Shown here piece after piece: positions 8,721-58,261 of a DNA stretch of 64,000 nt; position 1 is the stretch's first letter, and each line of letters begins with the position of its first letter. The notes under the pieces are model-generated. The model ran no database searches and was not told the origin of the DNA. It saw only the letters and a list, made by a program, of their open reading frames with translations. The DNA is from Alicycliphilus denitrificans K601 (GTDB lineage Bacteria > Pseudomonadota > Gammaproteobacteria > Burkholderiales > Burkholderiaceae_C), in the NCBI RefSeq assembly GCF_000204645.1, contig NC_015422.1:3055001-3119000 (forward strand). Reading direction: 5' to 3'. Made by a program: the position numbers and the translations under genes.

Positions 8721-8729
8721 ATCGGCGCG

Positions 8730-37178: not shown

Positions 37179-37628
37179 ATGAGATTCCTGCACACCATGC
37201 TGCGCGTTGGCGACCTCCAGCGCTCCATCGACTTCTACACCCGGGTGCTGGGCATGCAGTTGCTGCGCACCTCCGAGAACCCCGAGTACAAGTACTCACT
37301 GGCTTTCCTCGGCTTTGAGGGCGGCAACCCCAGCCAGGCCGAGATCGAGCTGACCTACAACTGGGGCGTCGACCACTACGAAATGGGCACGGCCTACGGC
37401 CACATCGCCCTGGGCGTGCCCGATGCCTACGCGGCCTGCGAGAAGATCAAGGCCGCCGGCGGCACCGTGACGCGCGAGGCGGGTCCGGTCAAGGGCGGCA
37501 CGACGGTGATCGCCTTCGTGACCGACCCCGACGGCTACAAGATCGAATTAATACAAGCAAAATCAACAGCTTACGAAGACAGCCGCCATTCAGCCGCCAA
37601 AAACGTCGATCCACTGCGCAGCGCGTAG
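37179..37628 (+). CDS. gloA: Lactoylglutathione lyase (glyoxalase I)
   Basis: It turns the methylglyoxal-glutathione adduct into lactoylglutathione. The 149-residue protein shows [20 protein letters not shown] at residue 7, the metal ligands His, Glu, His and Glu in the usual places (MLRV start, [23 protein letters not shown]). The C-terminal 20 residues ([20 protein letters not shown]) exceed the usual length and are less GC-rich. The ATG follows a possible -10 CACAAT by 6 bases with no ribosome site, suggesting a near-leaderless mRNA. It marks the last clear chromosomal gene before the accessory region. Confidence 0.93.
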
Positions 37629-37639
37629 CGGATGAACAA

Positions 37640-37670
37640 CAAGAAGCCCGCGTAAGCGGGCTTCTGTTTG
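37640..37670 (+). terminator. Terminator after gloA
   Basis: AGAAGCCCGC pairs with GCGGGCTTCT around GTAA, followed by GTTTGTG. Confidence 0.75.
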
Positions 37671-37797
37671 TGCAGCGATGGAAGATTCCTACGATGTCGT
37701 ACGGCTGCCATCACACCTACGCTCACCTGCGCCGAAGCAGGTTCTCCACGCAGCTTTCGTGCGGCATCGTTGCGCTACATGACAAGGGACAACCCAC

Positions 37798-38559
37798 GTG
37801 CCGCACGCACCTTCTGACTTTTACCGGACGCGCTTGGCTGGCCTGCACCAACAACTGCAGAATAGCCCGATCGCGCGCACCTACCTCACCGGCACAGGCA
37901 TACGCTTCGATGGCGTGGACCTGATGCCCGACGACCAGTTCGAACTACCGTTCGGCAGCTTCTCCACAGTGGAGTTCGCCCATCTGTTCTCCGTATTCGA
38001 CGGCAGCCGCGTGCATCAGCAGGTCGCCAAGGAACCCGTGCGGGATGCCCCGCCCGGCCTCTACTTCACGGTGGTCAACAACCACGTTATCCAGAGTCCG
38101 CACAAGAATCGGCTGGGCATCTACACCGACCAGAGAGGCGAAGCCGACCTCTTCATCGATGGCCTGCACGTCGATCACTACTTCCTGAACGAGCACCAGA
38201 CCCCGCCCACGCTCGGCACCATCGCGTTCGCTCTGTGCGCGATCGCCGCGCACCTCGCTGGGCTCTCCCAGGTATCCCTGGTGGCCGCAGGAGGTCGCGG
38301 ATTCGGCGACCAGTATGTGGGCTACAAGGTCTGGCCCAAGCTCGGCTTCGACGCACCACTGGAACCCGGCGAAGTCGCCCATGTCCTCCACCTGGCCCAC
38401 TGCAGCACTGTCCAGCAGGTGCTGGCTGCCGACCCGGCGTGGTGGGAGGAACAAGGCAGCCAGCGACTGATGACCTTTGATCTGGCCGCCGACAGCACGT
38501 CCTGGCAAAAACTGCTACCCTATGTCAGTAGAAAACTCTCTCACGGGAGGCTTCCATGA
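37798..38559 (+). CDS. Unknown 253-residue protein, first gene of a coupled pair
   Basis: I do not recognise this protein with confidence. It starts at GTG 37798 with AAGGGA upstream. The middle (LGTIAFALCAIAAHLAGLSQVSLVAAGG) forms a predicted hydrophobic helix-strand unit, followed by GFGDQYVGYKVWPKLGFDAPL. That ending resembles the Tyr-x-Val-Trp-x-x-(L/M)-G-F-D turn at the end of GNAT-like acyltransferase folds, so an acetyltransferase-like domain is possible. There is no signal peptide or membrane segment. The stop overlaps the start of a 66-residue gene (ATGA). GC and codon use are lower than in the upstream chromosome. The position, between gloA and a broken defence operon, suggests an accessory function. 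Confidence 0.6.
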   Translation: MPHAPSDFYRTRLAGLHQQLQNSPIARTYLTGTGIRFDGVDLMPDDQFELPFGSFSTVEFAHLFSVFDGSRVHQQVAKEPVRDAPPGLYFTVVNNHVIQSPHKNRLGIYTDQRGEADLFIDGLHVDHYFLNEHQTPPTLGTIAFALCAIAAHLAGLSQVSLVAAGGRGFGDQYVGYKVWPKLGFDAPLEPGEVAHVLHLAHCSTVQQVLAADPAWWEEQGSQRLMTFDLAADSTSWQKLLPYVSRKLSHGRLP

Positions 38560-38756
38560 GCAAGATCCACGCACCCCGCAAGCCCACTGAAACGCCGCAG
38601 AAGGCGGCGGTGGCCGGTCGCGTCTTCAAGTTGTCGCTCAAGGGTGTTCCTCCGGTCGATGCCAAGATGTGGGCGCAGATGACGGCGGCGGCGCGCACGC
38701 CGAACAAGGATCGGCGCTACCCGGAGATCGCTGAAGCGCCTGACGCCTCGATCTGA
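38556..38756 (+). CDS. Small basic protein, second gene of the coupled pair
   Basis: A 66-residue, Lys/Arg/Pro-rich protein (MSKIHAPRKPTETPQKAAVAG...) with GGGAGG 6 bases before its ATG, which overlaps the upstream stop by ATGA. No family recognised. The strict coupling to a larger partner resembles toxin-antitoxin or effector-immunity pairs, but nothing shows that directly. A terminator follows. Confidence 0.6.
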   Translation: MSKIHAPRKPTETPQKAAVAGRVFKLSLKGVPPVDAKMWAQMTAAARTPNKDRRYPEIAEAPDASI

Positions 38757-38774
38757 CAAGCGACACTCAAGCCC

Positions 38775-38808
38775 GAGACCCGCCAGCGATGGCGGGTTTC
38801 TTATTTTT
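38775..38808 (+). terminator. Terminator after the coupled pair
   Basis: GACCCGCCA pairs with TGGCGGGTT around GCGA, followed by TCTTATTTTT. It separates the pair from the convergent JAB gene. Confidence 0.8.
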
Positions 38809-38989
38809 CCCCTCCGACATAGGGGCAGCGACGAGCGGCTCCTCCAAACGGAAACGCAGGCACCACGCCGCACATCGACCACGTCGCTGTTGCATGCGGG
38901 AGCAGATGCCCCGCGGTTGCCTTGAGGTCTCCGGAGCCTGAGCTCAACCGACACGCCCTGGCATGTCAGTCCGCCGGCGTTGCTTGACT

Positions 38990-39493
38990 TCAGCTGACTG
39001 GATTGGGTTGAGCAGGAACTTGTTCTGTCAGTTGCATTGCTTCACCGTCATCTACCCAGACGCGCAAGCCCACCGGCAGGGGCCGAGTGCCCAGAATGGC
39101 GAATACCAGGCCCGTGAGCTGACCCCTGGCGGCCAGCGCGTGCTCCCTTGCGAGCACCCTGTCGTCGGACGAGGGACTCGGGAATTCCTCTGGATGCGTA
39201 TGCCAGAGGCCGACGCAGTGCAGGCCCCTCTCGAATTTCTTCGCTCGCTCAGTTGCCGCACGACGCGGGTCGAATTGGACCCGAGCCCACGCTGCCCACG
39301 TGGGCGTTAACAGTGTGGCTTCCTCGATGACGATGCAGTCGGACGTCAGGTCGCGGGAATAGAGCTGTCCCACTGACTCATGACTCCCTGGCCTTCGCTG
39401 GACGTGAGCGCGCAGCGTCCGCAACGCCGCCGCGCGGAACTGCAGGCACCAGAGTGCTCCCGGAAGTTTGTAGGTCAGCGTGCTCGCCGTCAT
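38990..39493 (-). CDS. JAB/JAMM metallopeptidase (Cap3-like)
   Basis: A 167-residue Zn isopeptidase-like protein. The whole JAMM signature is present: Glu39 in ESVGQLYS, His98-Thr-His100-Pro, Ser108 and Asp111 in PSPSSDD. Bacterial enzymes of this size remove or regulate ubiquitin-like conjugates. In type II CBASS (Cap3) they cleave the bond made by the E1-E2 protein Cap2. The ATG at 39493 overlaps the stop of the upstream E1-like fragment (ATGA), matching cap2-cap3 coupling. The open frame extends upstream in the same phase but into the E1 gene region. It appears intact even though its partner is broken. A Bil-type or other E1-E2-JAB operon is an alternative. Confidence 0.75.
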   Translation of the reverse strand: MTASTLTYKLPGALWCLQFRAAALRTLRAHVQRRPGSHESVGQLYSRDLTSDCIVIEEATLLTPTWAAWARVQFDPRRAATERAKKFERGLHCVGLWHTHPEEFPSPSSDDRVLAREHALAARGQLTGLVFAILGTRPLPVGLRVWVDDGEAMQLTEQVPAQPNPVS

Positions 39494-39858
39494 CGTCGGC
39501 CCAGAACCGCTGCAAGCTCTCGGGTCGTCGTGGCACTGTCGGACTTCGAACTGGATGTGGGCACGATGAGGCGCGTATTTGCGGCGACCGGCAACGAATC
39601 GAAGAAGGCACTGGACCGCACCCACGACCACACCGTCGAGGCCTGCGACATGTCGTCCAGGATCGCAATCACGCGCTCAGCCGCGAACGCTGCCACCAAC
39701 TCGATGTCGGCGGCGCCATACGGATGAAATCCGCCTGCGCATGCCTCGACCTTGATGCGCGTATCGCTGGCGGATAGGTCGCTCGCATTGACAAGTTCGT
39801 CGGCCGGGTCGGTATCGGGCCACGGAACTGCAGGCTGCGACAACACTACATGGGCGGC
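39490..39858 (-). pseudogene. C-terminal fragment of E1-like (ThiF/Cap2-type) protein, cut by IS21
   Basis: From the IS end to the stop at 39490, the reverse strand encodes about 121 residues ending in ...TRELAAVLGRR. The stretch CAGGFHPYGAADIELVAAFA followed by AAERVIAIL and WSWVRSS is typical of the end of the adenylation domain in ThiF-family E1-like proteins paired with JAB proteins. The nucleotide-binding part and any E2 domain are missing. They should lie to the right of the IS but are not there, so more than a simple insertion happened. The frame is still open into the IS. Confidence 0.65.
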
Positions 39859-39874
39859 TGTTGATTTCCACGCA
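39859..39874 (+). repeat. IS21 left terminal inverted repeat
   Basis: TGTTGATTTCCACGCA. Perfect complement of the right end at 42344-42359. Confidence 0.9.
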
Positions 39875-39931
39875 AAGCTGACCCACCATTTCCATCGAAT
39901 CTTGACCCACCCTGGTTCGTGAGCTTCACGC

Positions 39932-40735
39932 TCACGTTGTGGATAAGTTCTTGGTCGCCTTCTCCTTCTTGGTGGTCTGTGGTGGTTGCTGTGCGGAGCT
40001 ATTCTTGAACCGGTAGCTGTCATTGCCGGTCTCAAGAATATGGCAGTGATGCGTGAGCCGGTCCAGCAGCGCCGTGGTCATCTTGGCATCTCCGAACACA
40101 TTGGCCCACTCGCTAAAGCTCAGGTTGGTGGTGATCACGACGCTCGTGCGCTCGTACAGCTTGGACAGCAGGTGGAACAGCAAGGCTCCTCCTGACGTGC
40201 TGAATGGCAGGTAGCCCAGTTCATCCAGGATCACCAGATCGGCATAGGCTAGGCGGTGCGCGATCTGCCCCGGCTTGCCCTGGGCCTTCTCCTCTTCCAG
40301 TGCATTGACCAGCTCCACCGTGGAGAAGAACCGCACCCTGCGGTGATGGTGCTCAATGGCTTGCACCCCGAGGGCTGTGGCGATGTGGGTCTTGCCCGTA
40401 CCCGGTCCACCCACCAGCACCACGTTGTTGGCGTTCTCCAAGAATTCGCAGCGGTGCAACTGGCGTACCAATGCCTCGTTCACCTCGCTGTGGCTGAAGT
40501 CAAACCCAGCCAGGTCCCGGTACGCAGGGAACCTGGCCACCTTGAGTTGGTAGGCCACAGAGCGCACCTCCCGCTCGGCGGTCTCGGCCTTGAGCAGTTG
40601 GGACAGGATGGGCTGCGCTGCGTCGAAGGCCGGCGCACCTTGCTCAGCCAGTTCCGCAACCGCCTGGGCCATGCCGTGCATCTTGAGCTCGCGCAGCATG
40701 ATCACGATGGAAGCGATGGCAGGGTCATGACGCAT
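39932..40735 (-). CDS. istB: IS21-family ATP-binding helper protein IstB
   Basis: A 267-residue AAA+ protein that assembles target DNA for IstA. Walker A is [11 protein letters not shown] near residue 105, Walker [13 protein letters not shown] near residue 170 and the sensor TTNLSFSEW near residue 213. The N-terminal [17 protein letters not shown] is typical. It overlaps istA by 11 bases. Complete. Confidence 0.95.
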
Positions 40736-42275
40736 AGCGCACCTCCCTCAATTGGTCATAGCGCAGCACGTTGGCCTGGGGTTCCACAGACAGCTTGAGG
40801 GCCTGGGGCGAGGTGACCGGTGCTGGGGCGGGCTTACCGTCCAGCAGGCGGTGCAGCACGTTCAGGATGTGGGTCTTGCTGGCAGCCCCTGACTCCAGTG
40901 CCAACTCCACTGCAGCGAGCACAGCTTGTTCATCGTGGTGCAGCACCAGAGCCAGAACCTCCACCATCTCTCGGTCGCCGCCTGGCTGCTTCAAGAGGGC
41001 GGCCTGCAGGCGCTTGAAGGCTGCTGGCAGTTCCAGGAATGGAGCACCATTGCGCAAGGCCCCGGGCTTGCGCTGCAGCACTGCCAGGTAGTGGCGCCAG
41101 TCGTACACGGTCTGTCCCGCACCATGGTGGTTACGCTCGATCAGGCGCTGATGCTCGCACACGATCTGGCCTTCGGCGGCGACCACCAGGCGATCGGCGT
41201 AGACCCGCAGGCTCACCGGCCGATTGGCATAAGGCGCCGGCACGCTGTAGCGGTTGCGCTCGAAGTGGACGAGGCAGGTGGGTGAGACGCGTTTGGTGTG
41301 CTCCACAAAGCCATCGAAGGGCCGGGGCATTGGCATCAAGTCGTTCTTCTCCTCGGTCCAGATGTCCGCGACGGTGCCCGGCAGCTTGCCGTGCTCGATC
41401 TCGTGCCACAGCGCCACGCAGCGCTCTTCAAGCCATGCATTGAGATCGGGCAGGCTTGGGAATGGCGGCACTACCTGCCACAGGCGATGGCGGGCATCGC
41501 GCACGTTCTTCTCCACCTGGCCCTTCTCCCAGCCCGAAGCAGGATTGCAGAACTCGGCCTCGAACAGGAAGTGGCTGACCATGGCCGCAAAGCGCGCATT
41601 GACGTCGCGCTCCTTGCCACGGCGCACCCGGTCTACGGCGGTGCGCATGTTGTCGTAGATGCCACGGCGGGGCACACCGCCCAGGACTGCGAATGCATGG
41701 TTGTGGGCATCGAACAGCATCTCGTGCGTTTGCAGCGGATAGGCGCGCAGGTAGAACGCTCGGCTGTGGCTGAGCTTGAAGTGGGCTACCTGCAGCTTGG
41801 TGCGCACGCCGGCGAGAACAGCCCAGTCCTCGCTCCAGTCGAACTGGAAGGCCTCACCCGGACCGAAGGCCAGGGGAACGAAGGTGCCGCGGCCAGTGGT
41901 CTGCTGGGCCACAAGGCGCTGCTCGTGCCAGAGGCGGGCAAAGGCCGCTACGCGGTTGTAGGAGCCGCCATAACCGAGCGCCTGCAGATCCACGTACATC
42001 TGCTTGACGGTGCGGCGCTGCTTGCGGGATCGGCCAGCTTCCGTCTTGAGCCAGCCAGCGAGCTTCAAGGCGAAGGGATCGAGCTTGGATGGACTGACCC
42101 GCTTGGCATAGTGCGGCTCGGCCTCGCCTACGCGCAGGTACTTGCGGATGGTGTTGCGCGAGAGGCCCGTGCGGCGGGCTATCTCCCGGATGGACAGCTG
42201 CTCTCGCAGGGCCCAGCGCCTGATGACACTCAGTGTTGCCACGTCTATCACTCCTGGTCTCCTGCTGCTCAGCAA
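40725..42275 (-). CDS. istA: IS21-family transposase IstA
   Basis: A 516-residue DDE transposase. An N-terminal HTH ([21 protein letters not shown]) lies near residue 28. The catalytic core has DWSEDWAV near residue 145, the second Asp in IYDNMRTAV near residue 208, and Glu in [11 protein letters not shown] near residue 250. The first in-frame ATG at 42275 gives MLSSRRPG. A downstream GTG is also possible. It appears complete, so the element may still be able to move. Confidence 0.94.
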
Positions 42276-42343
42276 AGCAGCAGGTTAGGGTTAGTACGTG
42301 GGTCAGGTTTGGATGGAAATCCCGGGGGTTAGTGGGTCACTTC

Positions 42344-42359
42344 TGCGTGGAAATCAACA
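42344..42359 (-). repeat. IS21 right terminal inverted repeat
   Basis: TGCGTGGAAATCAACA, complement of the left repeat. Confidence 0.9.
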
Positions 42360-42780
42360 ATATGGCCACCCGGCCTTGCTTTGGAGTTCCTAACCACGCC
42401 TCAAGCATGGCCGCCGCACGGTGCAGGGTGCGTTGCCGCCAGTCGTTGGGGATTGGCCTTGCCCGAGTCAGAGGGCGTGCCGTTGGAGTCGTTGTGCGGG
42501 GATGCCGAGCTGGCCATGCCTCCTTTCGGAGCTGGATCGGCCCATGGCGTTCTTGTGTTGTTGTGAATCCTGGCGGTGGCGCGGGCTTCATGTCTGCAAC
42601 CTTCCAGCCCAAATAATTTCCCCTGTGCTGCGCACATTCCTCGCGGGACAAATTATTGGGGCTTGCAGGTGCTTCACTGTGTTGCGCCCGCAAGCGGTGC
42701 AGCCCGCCCGTCCCCCGCCGGTCGGATCACAACAAGGACGCGATGGGCGCGAACCTTGTTCAACCGTAAGGAGATTCATC
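42360..42780. other. ICE DNA between IS21 and the DUF736 gene
   Basis: 421 bases. No continuation of the E1-like gene is found here on the reverse strand. A separated inverted repeat built on AAATAATTT (around 42610) and AAATTATTGGGG (around 42650) lies upstream of DUF736. AAGGAG precedes the DUF736 ATG. No gene is supported. Confidence 0.45.
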
Positions 42781-43095
42781 ATGGCAACCATCGGCACCTT
42801 CACCGCGGACAAAGACGGCTTCACCGGCACGCTGCGCACCCTGACTCTCAACATCAAGGCCAAGCTGGTTCCCAACAACAAGGGGGACAACGAGCACGCC
42901 CCGGATTACCGCGTGCAGGCGTCAGGCTTCGATATCGGCGCCGCGTGGAAAAAGGTCAGCAAGGCCGAACGGCCCTACGTGTCCGTGACCCTCGACGACC
43001 CTTCGTTCCCGGCAACGGTCTATGCCCGGCTGATCGAGGAGGAAGACGGCACGCACACGCTGATCTGGTCACGCAGCAGGCCCCAGGCGGCCTGA
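42781..43095 (+). CDS. DUF736 family protein (ICE accessory)
   Basis: A 104-residue protein: MATIGTFTADKDGFTGTLRTLTLNIKA, then PDYRVQASGFDIGAAWKK and VSVTLDDPSFPATVYARL, the DUF736 pattern. These small proteins are frequent in the backbone of Tn4371-type conjugative elements and on plasmids. Their function is unknown. AAGGAG precedes the ATG at a good distance. It is the first recognised gene of the ICE block. Confidence 0.9.
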   Translation: MATIGTFTADKDGFTGTLRTLTLNIKAKLVPNNKGDNEHAPDYRVQASGFDIGAAWKKVSKAERPYVSVTLDDPSFPATVYARLIEEEDGTHTLIWSRSRPQAA

Positions 43096-43449
43096 CGGCC
43101 GCCCAGCGCCCCGTCCGAGCGGCGGGGCGCGGTGCTGCTTTCGCAGCACGGCATGAAGGCAACATCGTCACTGGAGCGTGGCTCGTGTCGGTCCGCTTCC
43201 AATGTTGAGACTGTGGTTGCGCGGACAGCATGGCGTGCCGGTGCTTTGCACCGCCGGGCTTTCGGGCTGGGCCCCGTGCCGGCTGCGCCGTCACGGCCAT
43301 TCGGCTTCAATCCCTCACGCCTTCGCGCCTGCGGCGCTGCGCGCTTTGCTTGCCTCCAGGGGAAAGCCTTGCGGCTATCCCCGCCGCGCGGCGCTTGGCG
43401 CCCCTCGATACCGCCGAACCGGGTTGCGCCGGATCGGCCAAGCCAGCGG
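43096..43449. other. Non-coding stretch between DUF736 and the XRE regulator
   Basis: 354 bases with no convincing gene on either strand. Forward open frames here overlap the opposite regulator and have no family resemblance. Confidence 0.5.
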
Positions 43450-43740
43450 CTACGAGCGATCCCCTGCGAGCTGGCCTTCGGTCTGGCTCATCAGCACTGC
43501 TGTGCTGCATTCGAGCGCACCGGCGATCTTGAAGATGATCGCGAGCGTAGGCATATGCTCGCCGCGCTCGATCTTGCCCATGTGCGAACGCTCGATCCCG
43601 GCCTGGTGCGCCAGTGATTCTTGCGCAATTCCGCGCTCCATCCGCAGCGCACGCACCGCCGCGCCGAAGGCGTGAGCCAACTCGGCGTCATGGGTGGTGG
43701 AGCCAGCCGGTCGGCCGCGCTGGACGGATCGCTTCTGCAT
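43450..43740 (-). CDS. XRE-family transcriptional regulator
   Basis: A 96-residue protein with a classic HTH: FGAAVRALRMERGIAQESLAHQAGIERSHMGKIERG (residues about 26-60), followed by TLAIIFKIAGALECSTAVLM. The ATG at 43740 is chosen over a start 9 codons upstream. The only reverse-strand gene of the ICE block, it probably controls the element's transfer or maintenance genes. The target is unknown. Confidence 0.88.
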   Translation of the reverse strand: MQKRSVQRGRPAGSTTHDAELAHAFGAAVRALRMERGIAQESLAHQAGIERSHMGKIERGEHMPTLAIIFKIAGALECSTAVLMSQTEGQLAGDRS

Positions 43741-43951
43741 AGACAGAAGCGTCGAGTCGCAGCACAATTAAAACCACGTTATCTTTAACTCATTCGCAGC
43801 CTCGCTGCTTTGCGCTTCTACAGAAATCCACATTGCAGTTCTTGACGAAAGCGCCGATCCATGGAATCACAATCGTGCTTCTCCACAAATCCCCTGATGC
43901 GGCTTGCCACCTTCACGCCTTGGCGGATTCGTGCGACCTGAAGGAAACACC

Positions 43952-44299
43952 GTGAACCGGCTCACCACCGACGACGAGCGTGAGCGGTTGCTGGCCCACG
44001 GGAAGGCCCGCGCCGCTGGCAAAAACATCGACCCGATGCCTGTGGTGCGCCTATTCACGCCGGACGCGCACGTCACCTGGTTGCTGGCGGCGCTCGATCC
44101 CGCTGATGGCGACACCGCCTGGGGTCTTATCGACCTGAGTATCGGGATGCCGGCGCAAGGCACCGTCAAGCTGTCCGAGCTGGCCGGCATTGTCGGGCCG
44201 CGCCAGCAGCCTGTGATGCGTGACCTCTACTTCCGTCCCACGCGCACGCTGTCGGAATACACCCGGCTGGCCGAGCGTGATGGAGCCATCCCGGACTGA
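43952..44299 (+). CDS. DUF2958 family protein
   Basis: A 115-residue protein with PMPVVRLFTPDAHVTWLLAALDP near residue 30, AWGLIDLSIGMPAQGTVKLSEL near residue 60 and PVMRDLYFRPTRTLSEYTRLA near residue 90, the DUF2958 pattern. Function unknown. Common in integrative elements. The GTG start at 43952 has AAGGA 6 bases upstream. Confidence 0.88.
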   Translation: MNRLTTDDERERLLAHGKARAAGKNIDPMPVVRLFTPDAHVTWLLAALDPADGDTAWGLIDLSIGMPAQGTVKLSELAGIVGPRQQPVMRDLYFRPTRTLSEYTRLAERDGAIPD

Positions 44300-44592
44300 A
44301 TTCGGCTTACTGTGACTTTTTCAGTCTGGTGCCATGCCGGGCGGGTCTCAATCGGGATTCTTGCGGCGTAACGGCTCCAGTCTGATCCAAATAGTCATGA
44401 TGCCCAGCGCGAACTGCGGCAGGCTGGTCTGTACAGCGTCCCATGGTCGGGACACTACCGCCGCGGCAACCGCAACGCATCGGAGCCAATCGGACAACCT
44501 CATCCACCTGCTTAACCCATGACGTTTCGACGATGGCGATGTAGCGCGTAGTCCTGCCGTGGCGGCGATTCCTGTTCGCAGGAGGAAGCGTC

Positions 44593-45342
44593 ATGGTCGA
44601 TCCTCACCACGCCGCGCATTGGTATCCGACCGCTGCGTACTTGTATGTCCTTTGGCTGGATGCACTTGCACTGGCCTGGGAGTACCTGCGCAGGCATCCC
44701 GATTACCGGCTCGACTGGCGGCGTCGTGCGCGCCGCCCCGATGCTGGGCAGCGCTGGGGCTTGCGCCTGCTGGAAGACCCGGCCATGGACGCGCGCGACG
44801 CGCATCCGGCCTGGCTGCCCGGCCACGATGCCGTGGTGCAGCTCTATCCGGATGCCGATCCGCCCGTGGATGCAGAGCTTTTCGCCTTTTGGCGCATCCC
44901 CGGCCATAAGCAACTGCTGCACGACGGCAGGGGGCTGACGCTGATTGCGCGAAGCCCCGGCCATTGGCAGCGCTTCGTGCTGGCCCCTGGCCTGGAAGAC
45001 GGCATGGCCGTGGCCTATGCCTATCGCGGTCGCGGGGTCACGCATGCGCCCGACACGCCCGCGCCAATGGCCCGGCCCAGGCCGCCCCCCGCCGTACTGC
45101 TGGAACTGCACACCCTGCATGCACTCGACGCCACCCTGGCGGGCGCATCCTTGCGCGAGGTCGGCGAAGGGCTGTTCGGTGCCGACGCCGTGGCCGATTG
45201 GTACAGCGACGGCGGCCTGCGCTCCAAGGTGCGCCGCCTGGTGCGGCGCGGCGATGCGCTGATGCGCGGCGGCTATCGCCGCCTAGCACAACTGCCCCCG
45301 CTTGAGAAGGGTCGTTTTGAAGGCGACGCAAAACGACCCTGA
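44593..45342 (+). CDS. DUF2285 domain protein (ICE backbone)
   Basis: A 249-residue protein: an N-terminal WYPTAAYLYVLWLDALALAWEYLRRHPDYR unit typical of the transcriptional-regulator-like proteins of Tn4371-type ICEs, and a C-terminal DUF2285 part (LHALDATLAGASLREVGEGLFGADAV ... SKVRRLVRRGDALMRGGYRRL) that looks like a DNA-binding fold. GGAGGAAG precedes the ATG. It lies upstream of the AlpA-like, repA and parA genes. Confidence 0.85.
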   Translation: MVDPHHAAHWYPTAAYLYVLWLDALALAWEYLRRHPDYRLDWRRRARRPDAGQRWGLRLLEDPAMDARDAHPAWLPGHDAVVQLYPDADPPVDAELFAFWRIPGHKQLLHDGRGLTLIARSPGHWQRFVLAPGLEDGMAVAYAYRGRGVTHAPDTPAPMARPRPPPAVLLELHTLHALDATLAGASLREVGEGLFGADAVADWYSDGGLRSKVRRLVRRGDALMRGGYRRLAQLPPLEKGRFEGDAKRP

Positions 45343-45425
45343 GCAGAGGGGCCTCGTTTTCTGAGACTGCCTCCATCCGGTTGCGCTGTGTGGCCGGGCG
45401 TTTTCAACCGATGGAGGTTCACACC

Positions 45426-45707
45426 ATGCGTCCCGCTCCCTTGCGGCCTGCCGCCGCTGTCTCGACCGCTGCCGCGCAGCCCCAACGCTATCTCACCAAC
45501 GACGAAGCCGCCGACTACCTGCGCCTGTCGCCGCGCACGCTGGAAAAGCAACGCGTGATCGGCGGCGGCCCGCGCTTTCGCAAGTTCGGCCGGCGCGTCA
45601 TGTACGCCGTGGCCGACCTCGATGCCTGGGCCGCAGAACGCAGCTTCGAGAGCACGTCCGATCCCGAGTACGCCGAGCAGCACTTGGCCGACAGCCGTGC
45701 GCGCTGA
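45426..45707 (+). CDS. AlpA/excisionase-like helix-turn-helix protein
   Basis: A 93-residue protein with a MerR/excisionase-type HTH: YLTNDEAADYLRLSPRTLEKQRVIGGGPRFRKFGRRVMY (residues about 22-60). Such proteins regulate ICE genes or assist excision. GGAGG lies before the ATG at 45426. Located 26 bases before repA. Confidence 0.88.
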   Translation: MRPAPLRPAAAVSTAAAQPQRYLTNDEAADYLRLSPRTLEKQRVIGGGPRFRKFGRRVMYAVADLDAWAAERSFESTSDPEYAEQHLADSRAR

Positions 45708-45733
45708 TCGGCGGCGCGCGGCAGGCCATCGCC

Positions 45734-46591
45734 ATGTCCAGCACCGCGCTGCCGTCCCGGCAGCGGCCGTTGCAGGAGCGCGAACAGCTCGACCTGTTCC
45801 GCGCTTTGCCCGGCGACATGGCGCCGCGCGACAGCCAGGACTTGATGGCCTATCCGTTCTTCTCGCTCGGCAAGTCCAAGCGGGTCAAGCCCATCGACTT
45901 CTGCGCGGGCAACGTGATGATCTGCGTGGAAGGCACGGCCGAGCACGGCATCGCCACGATTTGGGATGCCGATGTGCTGATATGGGCGGCCTCGCAGATC
46001 GTGGAGGCGAAGGACGCAGGCCTGCGGCCGTCGCGGCTGATGCGCGCCACGCCCTACGAGATCCTGCGCTTCATCGGGCGCGGCAAGTCGCTGCGCGACT
46101 ACCAGCGCCTCAAGGCCGCGCTGGATCGCCTGCAATCGACCACGGTAGCCACGTCCATCCGCGAGACGACCGGGCGGCGCCTGCACCGCTTCTCGTGGAT
46201 CAACGAATGGAAGGAACTGGCCGATGCCAGCGGCACACCGCTGGGCATCGAGCTGATCCTGCCGGACTGGTTCTATGCGGGCGTGTTCGATGCGGCCCTG
46301 GTGCTGACCATCGACCCGGCGTACTTCCGGCTGACGGGTGGCATCGAGCGGTGGCTTTATCGCCTGGTGCGCAAGCACGGCGGCAGGCAGGCGCACGGCT
46401 GGCAGTTCGACTTTCGCTACCTGCACCAGAAATCGGGCAGCACCGCGAAGCCTTACGACTTCGCCTGCGACCTGCGCGCGCTGGTCGCGCGGCAGTCGCT
46501 GCCCGGCTACGTGTTGGGAATCGAGCGGATGCCGGACGACGGAACGGAATTGCTGACCTTCCGGCCCGTGCCGCAAACGGCACGGGGATAA
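45734..46591 (+). CDS. repA: Replication initiator protein RepA (ICE type)
   Basis: A 285-residue initiator of the RPA family found in Tn4371-like ICEs and some plasmids. Features include QRPLQEREQLDLFRALPGDMAPRD at the N-terminus, YPFFSLGKSKR near residue 40, ATPYEILRFIGRG near residue 105 and LTGGIERWLYRLVRKHGG near residue 200. It probably binds the iteron-like repeats 25 bases downstream of its gene to allow transient replication of the excised element. Complete. Confidence 0.88.
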   Translation: MSSTALPSRQRPLQEREQLDLFRALPGDMAPRDSQDLMAYPFFSLGKSKRVKPIDFCAGNVMICVEGTAEHGIATIWDADVLIWAASQIVEAKDAGLRPSRLMRATPYEILRFIGRGKSLRDYQRLKAALDRLQSTTVATSIRETTGRRLHRFSWINEWKELADASGTPLGIELILPDWFYAGVFDAALVLTIDPAYFRLTGGIERWLYRLVRKHGGRQAHGWQFDFRYLHQKSGSTAKPYDFACDLRALVARQSLPGYVLGIERMPDDGTELLTFRPVPQTARG

Positions 46592-46615
46592 CTCCGGGAG
46601 AGCCTGTGAATGGTG

Positions 46616-46679
46616 TCGTGCTATCAGGCGTGCGGGGTATCGTGCTATCGGGCGTGGGACTATCGTGCTATCAGGCGTG
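46616..46679 (+). repeat. Three iteron-like direct repeats (candidate origin)
   Basis: TCGTGCTATCRGGCGTG occurs at 46616-46632, 46640-46656 and 46663-46679, with starts 24 and 23 bases apart, about two helical turns. Copies 1 and 3 are identical and copy 2 differs at one base. They lie between repA and parA, followed by an AT-rich stretch at 46725-46765. This is the layout of an iteron origin. Confidence 0.75.
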
Positions 46680-46880
46680 CCGATCGGCCGCAAACCCGCG
46701 CCAGCATTGGGTTTGCGCGCCCTCTAACTTCCCTAACTTAATTTCTCTGACTTTTAGTAGGGAAACGCCGCTGCGGTGGACAACCACCATGCGGCCAGAA
46801 ACGGCAGGCAATCTCAGCCACCAGCCGACAGGTTTTGCAAGCGAATCGAAGCAAGGCTTTCCAGCATGGAGGGCCACGCC

Positions 46881-47519
46881 ATGATCGTCGCTCTGCTCAA
46901 CCAAAAAGGCGGCGTGGGCAAGACCACGCTCGCGACCCACATCGCCGGCGAGCTGGCGATGCGCGGGCAGTCGGTCATCCTGCTGGATGCCGATCCGCAG
47001 GGTTCATCGCTGGACTGGACACAGCGCAGAAGCCAGCAAGGCTTGCCACGGCTGTTCAGCGCCGTGGGCCTCGCACGCGAAACACTGCACCAAGAGGCGC
47101 CAGAACTCGCCAGGCGGGCCGATCACGTCGTCATCGACGGCCCGCCCAGGATCGCCGCCTTGGCGCGCTCCGCGCTGCTGGCGGCCGAGCGCGTGCTGAT
47201 CCCCGTGCAGCCCAGCCCCTACGACCTGTGGGCCAGCGCTGAGATGGTGGGGCTGATCCGCGAGGCGCAGGTGTTCCGGCCGCTGCTCGCCGCAGCCTTC
47301 GTCATCAACCGGCGCGTCAGCACCACTGTGATCGGACGCGAGGCACGCGGCGCGCTCGCCGACCAGCCGCTTCCCGCGCTGCGCGCGGAAGTGCATCAAC
47401 GCATCGTGTTCGCCGACAGCGTGGCCGCTGGCCGGCTTGCACGCGAGACGGCGCCTGACAGCGCCGCCGCGCTCGAAATCACCGCCCTGGTGGATGAACT
47501 GCTGCGGTGGCCGACATGA
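46881..47519 (+). CDS. parA: ParA-family partition ATPase
   Basis: A 212-residue P-loop ATPase with deviant Walker A KGGVGKTTLATH near residue 10, ILLDADPQGSSLDW near residue 33 and VVIDGPPRI near residue 77. It segregates the element's replicon. GGAGGG precedes the ATG at 46881. The next gene overlaps it by ATGA. Confidence 0.93.
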   Translation: MIVALLNQKGGVGKTTLATHIAGELAMRGQSVILLDADPQGSSLDWTQRRSQQGLPRLFSAVGLARETLHQEAPELARRADHVVIDGPPRIAALARSALLAAERVLIPVQPSPYDLWASAEMVGLIREAQVFRPLLAAAFVINRRVSTTVIGREARGALADQPLPALRAEVHQRIVFADSVAAGRLARETAPDSAAALEITALVDELLRWPT

Positions 47520-47800
47520 CAGCAAAGCCGCCACCGAACAGCAAACGCGCAGCAAAGCGCGTCGGCATCGGCGCGCGTCCGCCTGCGAATCCGCACGCAG
47601 AAGCGTGGATTCGGCAGGGTGACGCCGATGCGCTGGGCAAGGGCGACTTCTACACCGCCCGCCTGACCCTCGACATCACGCCCGCCATGCGGGCGCGCAT
47701 CAAGGTGTCGGCCTTCACGCAAGGCGTGACGGTGGCTGACCTGCTGCGTGGTCTGCTGGAGCGCGAGTTTCCAGAACACCGCAGGGAGAACACCCCATGA
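47516..47800 (+). CDS. Small partition-associated protein (ParB role)
   Basis: A 94-residue protein with a basic N-terminus and TARLTLDITPAMRARIKVSAFTQGVTVADLLRGLLEREF, a ribbon-helix-helix-like pattern. It overlaps parA and the DUF2840 gene by 4 bases each, so it is translated with them. It probably serves as the DNA-binding partner of ParA. Confidence 0.75.
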   Translation: MTAKPPPNSKRAAKRVGIGARPPANPHAEAWIRQGDADALGKGDFYTARLTLDITPAMRARIKVSAFTQGVTVADLLRGLLEREFPEHRRENTP

Positions 47801-48342
47801 TTGCATCCGCTTCGTCTGCCCCCACGCCTGTTGCCTTCGCGGCTACGGCTGCGCTCGCAGCACCTTCCGGCCAGGCGGCCAACGGGCCACTGACGCGCGT
47901 GGCGCTGGCCTACATCGAACCACGCTTCAAGCTCTACCTGCGCTTCGGCGAACCCGCGCGCACGCACCAGCTCGACCGTTGGCGGCGCTGCGCGGTGTTC
48001 CTGCCGGGCGCGGTGTTCTGCCGCGTCCGCTGGCAGGCCAACGACTACGGCACGATTCGCTGGCAGCTCATGGTGATGCAGGCTTGCACGCCACTCGATG
48101 CGGCGCAGCGCATCCCCGGCGTGCAACCCGGCGCACGCCTGCTGCTCCACGCCGAGGGCGAGAACCAGGTGCGCGCCGTGCTGGAGCGCATCGACGCCAT
48201 CGAGGCGCTGGGCATCGCGCCTGTCGGCGTCTCGCCGGCGTACTGGCGCACGCTCGCCAACCGGCTCGCTGCCCGCCTGCCGCTGCCCGAATACACCGCC
48301 GAGCGGCACGCCGCCTGGCTGACTGCGAGGGCACTGCCATGA
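47797..48342 (+). CDS. DUF2840 family protein
   Basis: A 181-residue protein with TRVALAYIEPRFKLYLRFGEPARTHQLDRWRRCAVF near residue 30, AGCRVRWQAND-like core and a late WRTLANRLAARLPLP. The DUF2840 family is a regular member of the ICE operon between parA and traF. Function unknown. Overlaps neighbours by 4 bases on both sides. Confidence 0.85.
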   Translation: MIASASSAPTPVAFAATAALAAPSGQAANGPLTRVALAYIEPRFKLYLRFGEPARTHQLDRWRRCAVFLPGAVFCRVRWQANDYGTIRWQLMVMQACTPLDAAQRIPGVQPGARLLLHAEGENQVRAVLERIDAIEALGIAPVGVSPAYWRTLANRLAARLPLPEYTAERHAAWLTARALP

Positions 48343-48938
48343 CCGCCGTTTCCACGACCGGCACCGCACCGCGTCCTCGCTCGCATCCCCATTCACGGTG
48401 GCGCGCTCGCCTCGTGCTGGCGGGCCTGTCCGCCTGCGGCCTCGCTGCGCTGGCCTGGGCGTCCTTCGTGCAGCCGCTGCCGCGCCTGATCTACAACCCG
48501 TCCGACAGCGTGGCGGTCGGCTGGTATCGCGTCGATCCGCTGGGTCACGGCACCGGCTCGCTGCCATATCGGCTGGAAGTGAGCAGCATCGTCCTAACCA
48601 CGCTGCCGCCAGATGCCGCCGCGCTGGCTGCGCAGCGCGGCTATCTGCCAGCGCGCGTGCCGCTGCTCAAGCGCGTGGGCGCTGTGGCACCGCAGGAGGT
48701 GTGCATCGCAGACGGCAGCGTCCGCATCGACGGCGTGCCTTCGGCCGCTGTGATGCCCGCTGATCGGCTGGGCCGTCCGCTGCCGTCCTGGCAGCAGTGC
48801 CGTCGCCTTGAACCCGACGAACTGTTCCTGCTCAGTGCGACCAACCCGGCGTCGTTCGACAGCCGGTATTTCGGGCCGGTCAGCGCATCCGCCGTGATTG
48901 GCATCGCGCATCCGGTCTGGCTGGAATCCCGCCCATGA
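48339..48938 (+). CDS. traF: Conjugal transfer S26 peptidase TraF
   Basis: A 199-residue membrane-bound signal peptidase-like protein that in RP4-type systems matures the pilin. It has one N-terminal membrane segment (LVLAGLSACGLAALAWASFV), the catalytic Ser in YNPSDSVAVGWY near residue 55 and Lys in PLLKRVGAV near residue 111, then NPASFDSRYFGPV near residue 168. Its pilin substrate and mating-pair genes are absent from the window. Confidence 0.9.
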   Translation: MTAVSTTGTAPRPRSHPHSRWRARLVLAGLSACGLAALAWASFVQPLPRLIYNPSDSVAVGWYRVDPLGHGTGSLPYRLEVSSIVLTTLPPDAAALAAQRGYLPARVPLLKRVGAVAPQEVCIADGSVRIDGVPSAAVMPADRLGRPLPSWQQCRRLEPDELFLLSATNPASFDSRYFGPVSASAVIGIAHPVWLESRP

Positions 48939-49398
48939 AGGCCGTCGATTCGCTGCACGTCGCCGTGCATCTCATCGTGCCATCGGGCGTGTCGTTCTGC
49001 TGTTCGTCACCGTGTCGTCGCGCGTGCAGTGCGGGAGCATTCGCACCGCACTTCGCGCTGCCTTCGGCGCAGCCGTCCAACGTGCAGACGTCTTGCCTCG
49101 TACGTGCACGGCCTGCGGCCCTCCGCGCGTCCATCTGCGCGTTCGCCGGCGCGCTGGCTGCTCACGCAGCAGCGCCGCCGGGCCGCCGCTGCCCGGAGCG
49201 ACAGCGAGGGGCAAAAGCGGAAGGCAAGACAAAAGGGGACGGCACCTGTCGGCCCGCAAAGCCCGTCTGCACGTGGGGGTGGCGCGGCACGCAGCGGCTT
49301 CGCCGCCGTGCCGCGTGGGGCGCGAGGCCCGCGTCAATGCAGGCATGTTCGCGTGCTTCGCACGACCGGACACGCTGGAGCTTGCAGGGAGAGAAGCC
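48939..49398. other. Non-coding region before the relaxase gene (possible oriT)
   Basis: 460 bases with no supported gene. The relaxase frame stays open through it but has no family resemblance before 49399. In conjugative elements the origin of transfer often lies next to the relaxase gene. I cannot point to a defined nic site. Confidence 0.35.
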
Positions 49399-51381
49399 AT
49401 GACCAATCGCCGCGACGATGATTTCCGCATCCGCCCGAACCCTCCAAAGGCCCCGAAGAACCGGGGCCAGGGCTTCGTCTCAAAGGTGCTCAAGCAGGCC
49501 GGCAAAGCCAGCAGCGGCAAGTCCTCGATGCGTCGCGCTGGCGGCAGTGGCAAGGGCGCCGGCACCGGCCAGCGGCCCGGCTGGCGCCTGGGGCGTGGCC
49601 ACACGGCGGCGCGCTTCGCGGGAGCGAAGCTGACGCCCATGTCGCGGCGCGTGACCATCAAGACGCTGCTGGTCAATCAGCAGCGGGCCAGTCCGCAATC
49701 GCTCGCCAAGCACCTGCGCTACATCGAGCGCGATGGCGTGGGCCGCGATGGCGAGCCGGGCCAAGCCTACGGGCCGCAGACCAACGAAGCCGACCTCGAC
49801 GCGTTCAAGGAACGCTGCGCCGACGACCGGCACCATTTCCGCTTCATCCTCTCGCCCGAGGACGGCGCAGAGCTGGAAGACCTGAGCACCTACGCGCGGC
49901 ACCTCATGGGCCGCATGGAGGCCGACCTGGGCACGGGCCTCGATTGGGTGGCCGTCAACCACTGGAACACCGACAACCCGCATGCGCACATCGTCGTGCG
50001 CGGGCGCGACGACACCGGCAAAGACCTCATCATCGCGGGCGACTACATCGCCGATGGCTTCCGCCATCGTGCCGCCGAGTTGGCGACCGAATGGCTGGGG
50101 CCGCGTACCGAGCTGGAGATCCAGCAAGCCTTGCAGCGGGAGGTGGAACAAGAGCGGTGGACGAGCCTGGATCGCACACTCAAGCGCGAAGCGGACGACG
50201 AAGGCCAGGTACAGATCGAGCGCTTCAACGAGCCGAAGCTGCAACGCCAGCGCCTGCTGCTGATCGGCCGCCTGCAACACTTGCAGCGCATGGGCCTGGC
50301 CGACGAGACGCAGCCGGGCACCTGGGCTGTCCATGCCGACGCGGAGAAGACCTTGCGCGCCCTGGGCGAGCGCGACGACATCATCAGCACCATGCAGCGG
50401 GCCATGCGCGGCGAGCCGCGCGAGTTGGCGGTGTTCGAGCCAAGTGACGGTGGCCGCACCATCATCGGCCGCGTGGCTGCGAAGGGGCTGGCCGACGAGC
50501 TGCGCGACCGTGGCTATCTGATCATCGACGGGGTGAACGGCAAGGCCCATTACGTCGCGCTTAACGCCCGCGACGAGCTGGCGAACTATCCCGCCGGTGC
50601 GGTGGTGGAGGTGCGCGGTTCCGCCGAGGTGCGGGCGGCCGACAAGAACATCGCCGAGCTGGCGAGTGATTGCCTGTATCGCACCGATCATCACTTGGCC
50701 ATCGAACAAGGCCGGGCCAAGGCCGGACGCGACCCGCAGGAAGTCGTGGCGGCCCATGTTCGCCGACTGGAAGCCCTGCGCCGCGCCGGTATCGTGGAGC
50801 GTGTCGCCGAAGGTCTATGGAAGGTGCCGAACGACCTGCCCGAGCGTGGCCGCCAGTACGACGCGCGGCGCCTGGGCGGGGTGGCCATGGAACTGAAATC
50901 GCACCTGCCCATTGAGCGGCAGGCCCGAGTCATTGGGGCCACCTGGCTCGACCAGCAGTTGATCGGCGGCGGCAAGGGGCTGGGCGACCTGGGCTTTGGC
51001 GGCGAGACCAAGGAAGCACTGCAGCAGCGTGCCGACTTTCTGGTCGAACAGGGGCTGGCCGAGCGGCGTGGAAAGCGCGTGATCCTGGCGCGCAACCTGC
51101 TGGGCACGCTGCGCAATCGGGAGCTGGCGCAGGCCGCTAAAAACATTGCTGCTGAAACCGGCCTGGAGCATCGCCCGGTAGCCGAAGGGCAGCGTGTGGC
51201 CGGTATCTATCGGCGCAGCGTGATGCTCGTCAGTGGGCGCTACGCGATGCTTGACGATGGCATGGGGTTCAGCCTGGTGCCGTGGAAGCCGGTGATCGAG
51301 CAGCGGCTTGGGCAGCAGCTTGCCGCCACGGTGCGCGGCAGCGGGGTTACTTGGCGGGTTGAGCGACAACTTGGAATTTAA
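49399..51381 (+). CDS. Relaxase / mobilization nuclease (DUF3363 type)
   Basis: A 660-residue VirD2/TraI-like relaxase. The basic N-terminal part leads to RRVTIKTLLVNQQ, a Tyr-containing LRYIERDGVG near residue 110 and the metal site HWNTDNPHAHIVVRG near residue 188 (HxxxxxHxH pattern). The C-terminal two thirds match the DUF3363 extension of ICE relaxases. The ATG at 49399 has GGGAGAG upstream. An open extension back to 48898 is not part of the family. It would nick oriT to start transfer. It ends 5 bases from the stop of hemH and is the last ICE gene present. Confidence 0.88.
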   Translation: MTNRRDDDFRIRPNPPKAPKNRGQGFVSKVLKQAGKASSGKSSMRRAGGSGKGAGTGQRPGWRLGRGHTAARFAGAKLTPMSRRVTIKTLLVNQQRASPQSLAKHLRYIERDGVGRDGEPGQAYGPQTNEADLDAFKERCADDRHHFRFILSPEDGAELEDLSTYARHLMGRMEADLGTGLDWVAVNHWNTDNPHAHIVVRGRDDTGKDLIIAGDYIADGFRHRAAELATEWLGPRTELEIQQALQREVEQERWTSLDRTLKREADDEGQVQIERFNEPKLQRQRLLLIGRLQHLQRMGLADETQPGTWAVHADAEKTLRALGERDDIISTMQRAMRGEPRELAVFEPSDGGRTIIGRVAAKGLADELRDRGYLIIDGVNGKAHYVALNARDELANYPAGAVVEVRGSAEVRAADKNIAELASDCLYRTDHHLAIEQGRAKAGRDPQEVVAAHVRRLEALRRAGIVERVAEGLWKVPNDLPERGRQYDARRLGGVAMELKSHLPIERQARVIGATWLDQQLIGGGKGLGDLGFGGETKEALQQRADFLVEQGLAERRGKRVILARNLLGTLRNRELAQAAKNIAAETGLEHRPVAEGQRVAGIYRRSVMLVSGRYAMLDDGMGFSLVPWKPVIEQRLGQQLAATVRGSGVTWRVERQLGI

Positions 51382-51386
51382 TGGCA

Positions 51387-52400
51387 TCAAGTGATTTGGG
51401 TGGGTACGGTCGTCCAACCCGCGCGATGCTGCTCGGTGATGTGCTCCAATGCCACGATCCACGCCGGGCTGTCATTTAGACAAGGGATGTAGTCAAACGC
51501 CTGCCCTCCAGCTTGTAAAAACGTGTGCCGCGCTTCTATGTTGATTTCTTCAAGTGTCTCCAGGCAGTCGCTGACAAAACCCGGGCACATCACTTCCACG
51601 CTACGGGTTCCGGCCTTGGCGAGCGCTTGCAGCGTCGGCTCGGTATAGGGTTGCAGCCATTGGGCGGGGCCAAAGCGAGATTGGAAAGTCACCGTGTACT
51701 GCTCGGGCTGCAGTTGTAGCGCCTGCGCCAAAAGACGGGCCGTGTTGCGACACTGGTCGGCATAAGGGTCGCCCAGCCGCACGTTGCGCTCGGGAATGCC
51801 ATGGAAACTCATCACCAAATGCTGTGCGCGTTGCCCTTTGCGCTCCCAGTGCGCACGCACGCTACCGGTCAGGGCCGCGATGTAGTCGGAGTGATCGTGG
51901 TAATCGTTGACAAAGCGCAACTCCGGGTACCGGCGTGAGCGCCGTACCCAGTCCGCGACACCGTCGAACAGGCTGGCCGTGGTGGCAGCCGAATACTGCG
52001 GGTACAGCGGCAGCACCAACACCCGTTGCACCCCCGCGTCCAGCAGCGCCTGCAACTGAGTGCCAACGGCCGGTTGGCCGTAGCGCATGGCGGGCAGTAC
52101 CGGCGCTGGCAGGCCGGATTCACGCAAGCGCTGGCCCAGCAACTCGGCCTGGCGCTGAGTCCACACCGCCAGAGGTGAACCGGCATCGCTCCACACCGAT
52201 GCATATTTCGCCGCCGACCGGCGTGGCCGAACACGCAAGATGACGCCGTGGAGCAGCGGCAGCCAGAAGAGGCGCGGAATCTCCACCACCCGGGGATCCG
52301 ACAAGAATTGGGCCAGATAGGGACGCAAGGCCGCCGGCGTGGGCGCGTCGGGGGTGCCCAAATTGCACAAAAGCAAGCCGATAGGTTTTTCTGTTGCCAT
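51387..52400 (-). CDS. hemH: Ferrochelatase
   Basis: It inserts Fe2+ into protoporphyrin IX, the last step of haem synthesis. The 337-residue protein starts MATEKPIGLLLCNLGTPDAP and shows the catalytic His in VMSFHGIPERN near residue 200, SRFGPAQWLQPYTEP near residue 260 and CPGFVSDCLETLEEI near residue 285. An in-frame GTG at 52445 inside the attC would add 15 residues. The ATG at 52400 fits the family better. Its upstream region has been replaced by the cassette attC, so its expression may now depend on the cassette's transcript. It may be a second hemH of the cell. Confidence 0.93.
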   Translation of the reverse strand: MATEKPIGLLLCNLGTPDAPTPAALRPYLAQFLSDPRVVEIPRLFWLPLLHGVILRVRPRRSAAKYASVWSDAGSPLAVWTQRQAELLGQRLRESGLPAPVLPAMRYGQPAVGTQLQALLDAGVQRVLVLPLYPQYSAATTASLFDGVADWVRRSRRYPELRFVNDYHDHSDYIAALTGSVRAHWERKGQRAQHLVMSFHGIPERNVRLGDPYADQCRNTARLLAQALQLQPEQYTVTFQSRFGPAQWLQPYTEPTLQALAKAGTRSVEVMCPGFVSDCLETLEEINIEARHTFLQAGGQAFDYIPCLNDSPAWIVALEHITEQHRAGWTTVPTQIT

Positions 52401-55652: not shown

Positions 55653-55678
55653 GCTGTGGTTCTCCAAGGTATCCGGCG

Positions 55679-57244: not shown

Positions 57245-57290
57245 CGGAGGCACCCTTTGTAAAACGATGGGCCCGATGGTGCTTTCCGCA

Positions 57291-57343
57291 TCACGTTCTG
57301 TAAAATATATTTATAAGAACTTTTTAATATTAAAAAAAGAACA
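57291..57343. promoter_or_regulatory. AT-rich divergent promoter/operator of dabB and its LysR regulator
   Basis: A sharp drop in GC with TTATAAGAAC and TTAATATTAA arms, giving T-N11-A-type symmetry expected of LysR sites. It lies between the divergent starts of dabB (57244) and the regulator (57344). Confidence 0.5.
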
Positions 57344-58261
57344 ATGAAGCTGCAGCAGCTGAACTTTCACCACCTGTTTTATTTCTGGCGCGTGGCCAAG
57401 CTACAGCACCTGACCCGTGCGGCCGAAGAGCTCAACACCTCGCAATCGGCGGTGTCGGCGCAGATTCGCCAACTGGAGGAGCGCATCGGCGAGCCGTTGT
57501 TCGACCGCGAGGGGCGCAGGATGGTGTTGACCGCCACCGGCCAGCTCGTGCAGGCCTACGCGGAGAACATCTTTGGCCTGGGCCAGGAAATGCTGGGCCG
57601 TCTGCAAGGCCAGGCGGCCGGCATCACGCGCTTGCGTGTGGGCAGCGTGGCGACCATGTCCCGCAACTACCAGGAAAATTGGCTCCGCCCTTTGCTGGCA
57701 GACCCGGGCGTGACGCTGACCCTGGAATCGGGTGTGCTCGAAGGCTTGATCGAACGCCTGCTGCAGCACCAGCTGGACGTGGTGCTCGCGAACGAGACGG
57801 TGCCCGCCCACCCCGATCGCCCGCTGCACTGCCGATTTCTTGGCAGCCAATCGATTTCGCTGGTGGGCCCCGCCAGCCGGTGGCACTCGTGCAGCCTGCG
57901 CATTCCGAACGACCTGGACGGGCTGGATCTGGCGCTGCCTGGCCCGCGCCATGCCGTGCGCGCGCAATTCGATGCGCTGTGCCTGTCGGCGGGCGTGGCG
58001 CCCCGGCTGCGTGCCGAGGTAGACGACATGGCCATGCTGCGCCTGATTGCGCGCGACAGCGGCTGGCTGACCGTGCTGCCCGAGGTGGTGGTGCAGGACG
58101 AACTGCGCGCCGGCGTGCTCGTGACGGTGGGCCAGTCGCCCGACCTGCGCGAGAGCTTCTATGCCATCACTGCGCCGCACCGGCACCGCATCGACTTGCT
58201 CGAGCCGCTGCTGCGGCCATCCGCCGACCTGCCGGCTGCAGCGCATTCGCCGCCGCCCTGA
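57344..58261 (+). CDS. LysR-family regulator next to dabBA
   Basis: A 305-residue LysR regulator: HTH HLTRAAEELNTSQSAVSAQIRQLEERIG near residue 22, then the effector domain with LRVGSVATMSRNYQENWLRP near residue 92. The N-terminus LNFHHLFYFWRVAKLQHL is close to NhaR-type members. Divergent to dabB, so likely its activator in response to a metabolite of carbon status, which is inference. RBS weak (AAAAAAAGA). Confidence 0.88.
   Translation: MKLQQLNFHHLFYFWRVAKLQHLTRAAEELNTSQSAVSAQIRQLEERIGEPLFDREGRRMVLTATGQLVQAYAENIFGLGQEMLGRLQGQAAGITRLRVGSVATMSRNYQENWLRPLLADPGVTLTLESGVLEGLIERLLQHQLDVVLANETVPAHPDRPLHCRFLGSQSISLVGPASRWHSCSLRIPNDLDGLDLALPGPRHAVRAQFDALCLSAGVAPRLRAEVDDMAMLRLIARDSGWLTVLPEVVVQDELRAGVLVTVGQSPDLRESFYAITAPHRHRIDLLEPLLRPSADLPAAAHSPPP

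Follow-up and report, generated by a model that had tools for sequence, protein, structure and literature searches.

The stretch of DNA analysed here, which we call the window, comprises 64,000 nucleotides of contig NC_015422.1 of Alicycliphilus denitrificans K601. On its minus strand an intact cap3-like gene (38990..39493), identified by PADLOC, Pfam and a fold match, encodes a JAB/JAMM isopeptidase of 167 aa. In the sequence ATGA its start overlaps with the stop codon of the frame before it, and that frame is the 3' remnant of a cap2-like E1-E2 gene (39490..39858, minus strand; PADLOC and alignment), of which the C-terminal 122 residues are left. The fragment stops exactly at the end of an IS21-family element, and past the element lies the truncated backbone of a conjugative element. 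The original prediction, made from the letters of the sequence, had seen correctly that the JAMM gene is complete and that it overlaps the 3' end of an E1-like gene; it was also right about the fragment, though not about its length, which it gave as 121 residues.

The JAMM active-site set of the JAB protein (E39, H98, H100, S108 and D111) is complete. Of 218 homologues found, 120 were listed, one of them the JAB protein of the window itself; in these H98, H100, S108 and D111 are each conserved in 120/120 and E39 in 119/120, the one exception being a gap. The protein matched the PADLOC JAB model PDLC00900 at 9.7e-58 and the Pfam Prok-JAB family at 1.3e-10. An AlphaFold2 model (mean pLDDT 84.9) was closest in fold to PDB entry 9ild_A, in which Cap3 is in complex with a CD-NTase (E 6.7e-10, TM 0.76/0.83); the runner-up was at 3.4e-07. 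If made, the protein would probably fold and be catalytically competent. A scan of viral contigs with the JAB protein found no relative.

The E1-E2 fragment matched the PADLOC model PDLC00856 at 1.6e-39 over profile positions 453-571 of 573; neither this match nor that of the JAB protein can be put down to chance. We take this model and the JAB model to have been built for CBASS. When 13 full-length relatives are aligned with it, the fragment begins at the position of residue 475 of the B. pyrrocinia E1-E2 protein. It retains a cysteine that aligns with C514 of that protein and is the same in 13/13 relatives, and which is taken as the E1 cysteine. The alignment also places both the E2 domain (C88) and the GxGSLG adenylation core (351-356) outside the fragment, which thus falls short of the E2/E1 domain content of a Cap2. 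Beside the conserved cysteine the window has Glu, at a position that is Pro in 13/13 aligned relatives. We considered this Glu as a sign of decay and rejected the idea: it is also found in 3/117 E1-E2 proteins, including the full-length protein P0135 described below.

Since the two proteins have folds in common with the RadC and ThiF-like families, we weighed a housekeeping origin, with a ThiF/MoeB-type E1 and a cofactor-synthesis JAB, or with RadC. The JAB protein does score 12.7 bits against RadC, but this is below the Pfam cut-off of 22.1; the fragment matches no Pfam family, falling instead in the C-terminal region of E1-E2, and separate ThiF-type hits are found elsewhere in the genome. 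These family scores, together with the operon context of the relatives, rule out the RadC and ThiF/MoeB readings, and a housekeeping pair is scarcely credible. Nor was any phage tail family among the Pfam matches of the JAB protein. In Pfam, none of the matches that the original prediction had named as speaking against it (MoeB/ThiF, RadC or a phage tail protein) was thus obtained above cut-off.

The IS21-family element (39859..42359, minus strand; 2501 bp) carries istA (40725-42275) and istB (39932-40735), both on the minus strand and read towards the JAB gene; it was assigned with the NCBIfam IS21 transposase and IstB models. Its annotated plasmid relatives are of the ISThsp10/ISAlsp1 kind. 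The genome holds eight full-length copies, six of the others being identical to the window copy over 2501-2502 bases. No target-site duplication was found at seven of the eight by script, the window's copy included, or at the last by eye. Of three plasmid copies compared as well, one shares a CAC that could be a 3-base repeat, while the other two show no repeat. A search for exact direct repeats (10-14 bases) common to 37450-38050 and 51200-52000 likewise gave none.

The conjugative-element backbone (42360..51381, plus strand) was recognised by plasmid similarity, with its HTH and DUF2958 genes also assigned by Pfam, and is presumably of the Tn4371 type. From base 42365-42369 onward the DNA is ~87% identical to plasmids such as pPBL-H3_B2-1 over 92% of 42361-51400. 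The annotation of that plasmid names the genes as DUF736, HTH, DUF2958, DUF2285, RepA, ParA, DUF2840, S26 peptidase and relaxase. Further left, pPBL-H3_B2-1 carries integrase, DUF932 and ParB genes, whereas the window has the IS there. Since conjugative-element DNA begins directly beyond the IS, the IS connects the CBASS remnant with an internal part of that backbone. The E1 gene had been proposed to be cut by IS21; the fragment does end at the IS, but with the backbone on the far side this is not a simple interruption. A minus-strand ORF across the IS (42337-42693) was tried as the missing E1 half and rejected: searches of Pfam, PADLOC and NCBIfam gave no match for it, and from 42365-42369 on the DNA there belongs to the conjugative element. 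The relic (42360-51381) has no integrase at its left and no traG/trb noticed after the relaxase in the ORF list; the gene that follows the relaxase reads to us like a ferrochelatase.

To the left of the JAB gene, a glyoxalase-like gene (37179-37628) matches four same-genus relatives only to ~37546-37555, and its frame runs to 149 aa. The divergent 3' end may indicate where foreign DNA begins on the left. Between this gene and the JAB gene is a 253-aa ORF (37798-38559, plus strand). Neither Pfam nor PADLOC assigned it to a family, and no NCBIfam score passed its cut-off; two Variovorax paradoxus replicons have DNA similar to it (67-68%), for which their records list no feature. Farther right in the window (53094-58261), a divergent LysR-type gene accompanies two large genes of the minus strand; the two resemble a DAB-type pair for inorganic carbon uptake, of which the LysR-type gene would be the regulator.

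Operons of the closest relatives

We scanned genomes with the JAB protein and kept the best 80 of 87 loci. Within the window's family, 26/398 genomes match at E <= 0.001, its own genome counted, while the four other same-genus genomes listed in that 398-genome draw gave no match. At the 15 closest genome loci (L034-L048) the JAB proteins are 44-67% identical to the window's by best segment. Ten of these loci have SAVED, cyclase, E1-E2 and JAB genes in that order and an eleventh (L045) has cyclase, E1-E2 and JAB, so that a CD-NTase gene and a full E1-E2 gene precede the JAB gene at 11/15. The uninterrupted operon, which the original prediction had proposed to look for in related genomes, is thus the common arrangement among these 15. 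The remaining loci comprise one with two E1-E2 pieces only (L036), one cut by a contig end (L041), and two at which E1-E2 was not found (L046 and L048).

Plasmids gave the same picture. Seven plasmid records had a JAB match, and the best two, which we examined (B. pyrrocinia pBPJTT and Massilia sp. WG5), both carry nucleotidyltransferase, ThiF-family E1-E2 and SAVED genes beside the JAB gene. PADLOC assigned their cyclases to oligonucleotide-cyclase models and their SAVED genes to endonuclease-effector models. PDLC00900 and PDLC00856 were the top models for the B. pyrrocinia JAB and E1-E2 proteins, and the E1-E2 model was also the top one for the Massilia E1-E2 protein. On pBPJTT the annotated SAVED gene (L028:2775-3983) runs in the opposite direction to the cyclase operon, and its match to the effector profile does not begin before position 127; a rearrangement or a 5' truncation would give such a picture.

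In intact type II CBASS, a well-known anti-phage system of bacteria, Cap2 conjugates the CD-NTase through its C-terminal Gly or Ala with other proteins and so increases the output of the cyclase, and Cap3 cuts the conjugates that Cap2 makes. All 13 cyclase C-termini read in the clade end in one of these residues (8 Gly, 5 Ala), a tail that PMC10097602 reports for operons with full-length Cap2 and Cap3. Because the nearest relatives sit in CD-NTase/E1-E2/JAB operons, mostly with SAVED, and because the cyclases of the clade end as Cap2 substrates do, the window's pair descends from type II CBASS. The cap2-cap3 identity first proposed for it is borne out by the PADLOC matches, the Cap3 fold match and the operons of the relatives.

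The operon context also bears on whether the pair came from another ubiquitin-like E1-E2-JAB system, such as Bil or 6A-MBL. The JAB protein scores slightly higher with the NCBIfam 6A-MBL cap2_3 model (29.5 bits) than with the NCBIfam Cap3 equivalog (25.4), which would favour such an origin, but both scores are far below their cut-offs (320 and 200), so the protein is distant from the sequences behind both models. Against the same reading stand the strong PADLOC JAB and E1-E2 matches and the fact that the relatives adjoin a CD-NTase gene, mostly with SAVED, at the 11 genome loci and on both plasmids counted above. We consider descent from Bil, 6A-MBL or a similar system highly improbable and prefer the type II CBASS assignment.

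One genome of the window's family (G386, locus L002) has the best-scoring JAB protein after the window's own in that family, together with a long E1-E2 frame, and gave no SAVED hit. SAVED is therefore not universal among the kin and the effector may vary; that of G386 may be of another kind.

Across the survey, a frame of at least 430 aa abuts the JAB gene at 70/80 loci, a count that tests the length of the upstream frame and not its family. Truncated or internally deleted E1-E2 genes stand beside an open JAB frame at 4/80 other loci (L036, L053, L057 and L072), although the upstream frame of L057, at 423 aa, is barely under the limit. Two more loci (L041, L075) lie at contig ends and four (L046, L048, L061, L083) have no recognised E1-E2. 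At L036 the E1-E2 pieces are directly preceded by a frame of the phage-integrase type, and at L053 there are QRPTase and GTP cyclohydrolase II genes upstream. With four loci similarly truncated, the pattern in the window is not unique. For four close pairs of JAB and full-length E1-E2 homologues, the longest contigs are equal in size (49005, 15671, 47059 and 43102 bases), which suggests, but does not prove, that these are intact gene pairs on the same contigs.

Missing components and the age of the break

We searched for the parts that such an operon would need. Within the window, tblastn with a full-length relative found no other convincing E1-E2 piece, and genome-wide searches for the 5' part of cap2 with the E1-E2 model and with P0135 returned only the window's fragment and weaker ThiF-type hits. 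A cyclase query from the clade had 0 matches in the genome and a SAVED effector query from the clade also had 0; in the L034-bearing genome the same queries matched at 9.7e-217 and 1.0e-147, respectively. The SAVED Pfam model PF18145 had 0 matches in the genome and was positive in both the L034 genome and the L028 record of pBPJTT. A separate SAVED search, which detected 0/14 controls, is uninformative alone. The original prediction had reported the N-terminal half, any E2 domain and the CD-NTase and effector as not found, and this can be extended: none was found at the locus, and the genome-wide searches detected no 5' part of cap2, no cyclase of the clade and no SAVED. With no CD-NTase gene beside the remnant and no effector (SAVED in the clade) found in the genome, the locus does not make up a functional type II CBASS.

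The sole SMODS match in the genome is a cyclase ~0.96 Mb from the remnant, in another system. It has an adjoining 2TM/SLATT-type effector, and the genes around the two resemble a type I restriction-modification system. This second, independent CBASS-like pair (L145:5253-7605; ~2137252-2139604 of contig G000:C1) matched PADLOC models PDLC00769 (cyclase, 8.8e-119) and PDLC00712 (2TM/SLATT effector, 8.6e-77), and a 315-aa neighbour of the pair matched no PADLOC family. Genome-wide E1-E2 and JAB searches found neither a Cap2 nor a JAB gene there, and the distant cyclase ends in Leu, not Gly or Ala. For want of both a Cap2 gene and a suitable C-terminus, no conjugate of this cyclase is expected in the cell.

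The break itself looks recent. The fragment is identical in 122/122 residues to residues 475-596 of P0135, a 596-aa full-length E1-E2 protein encoded on a 6274-base contig in public sequence data, of which the window has only the C-terminal part. Together with the identity of the IS to six other copies in the genome, this suggests that there was little time for decay, though gene conversion among the IS copies could mimic youth. Over a short time a frame of 504 bases can stay open with no need for selection. The intact isopeptidase had been called odd without its partner if its role was only a supporting one, and this part of the original prediction is not supported, given the match to P0135, the identical IS copies and the similarly truncated loci elsewhere.

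We are highly confident that the pair is what is left, presumably without function and since a probably recent break, of a type II CBASS operon that encoded a SAVED endonuclease-type effector, a CD-NTase, Cap2 and Cap3. As the cause we propose a deletion or recombination linked to IS21, in which about four fifths of Cap2 were lost along with the cyclase and the effector, possibly by recombination between IS copies or by deletion adjacent to one. As neither the window's IS nor the other full-length copies show a target-site duplication, the route of loss is unproven. Such an event would have left the Cap2 tail, with its conserved cysteine but no E2 domain or ATP-binding core, and an intact Cap3.

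The surviving isopeptidase and comparison with known systems

If the JAB protein is expressed at all, this may be by read-through from istAB. It would then be an orphan with no known substrate in this cell, presumably lacking a present function, and most likely it is a passenger with nothing left to act on.

An orphan Cap3 could instead have been kept, and expressed from the IS21 transcript, as a deconjugase that acts in trans to tame another type II CBASS, resident or incoming. The open JAB frame with all five active-site residues would fit, as would its position downstream of istAB on the same strand, the truncated E1-E2 genes beside open JAB frames at 4/80 other loci, and the possibility of further Cap3 targets raised in PMC10097602. 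However, a break that looks recent makes intactness without selection a sufficient explanation. Searches of the genome gave no second E1-E2 gene, and its one SMODS cyclase comes with a 2TM effector, without E1-E2 or JAB, and ends in Leu. No sigma-70-like promoter site was found in 38700-40200, for which the mean number expected by chance is 0.3. Moreover, the survey was made with the JAB protein as the query, so it cannot measure whether JAB genes outlast the other genes of their operons. We regard a trans-acting role as very unlikely. We give just as little credence to a broader form of the idea, in which an IS21-linked orphan Cap3 lets the host or the conjugative relic disarm incoming type II CBASS cyclases and in which the recurrent truncation to a Cap2 tail and Cap3 is due to that. 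No report of an orphan cap3 was found in the literature searched.

Under the recent-remnant reading, which we prefer, the locus clearly illustrates the loss of a defence operon: the 5' part goes at a junction with a mobile element, and for some time the last gene can still be read. It also carries a caution, namely that an intact leftover gene is not evidence of selection when the break looks recent. It raises no new question about CBASS itself.

Among solved structures, Cap3 in 9ild has a fold like that predicted for the window's JAB protein, with a low sequence identity of 16%. Solved Cap2 structures (7to3, 7tsq, 7tsx) are the best PDB matches of the E1-E2 protein of a full-length relative, at 86 bits by profile; the sequence identity is low and the aligned region excludes the part that remains in the window. 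Much closer are the genes of B. pyrrocinia pBPJTT (NZ_CP091309.1), where the C-terminus of E1-E2 is 76.5% identical over 98% of the fragment and the JAB protein is 60.7% identical to the window's over 90%. There, E1-E2 (7214-9004) and JAB (9001-9486) overlap by 4 bases, like the window's pair, but E1-E2 is complete, with 596 aa, and has a CD-NTase gene before it, whereas in the window the cyclase and the effector are gone and so are four fifths of E1-E2. What the window holds is the ordinary decay of a system of an already known type.
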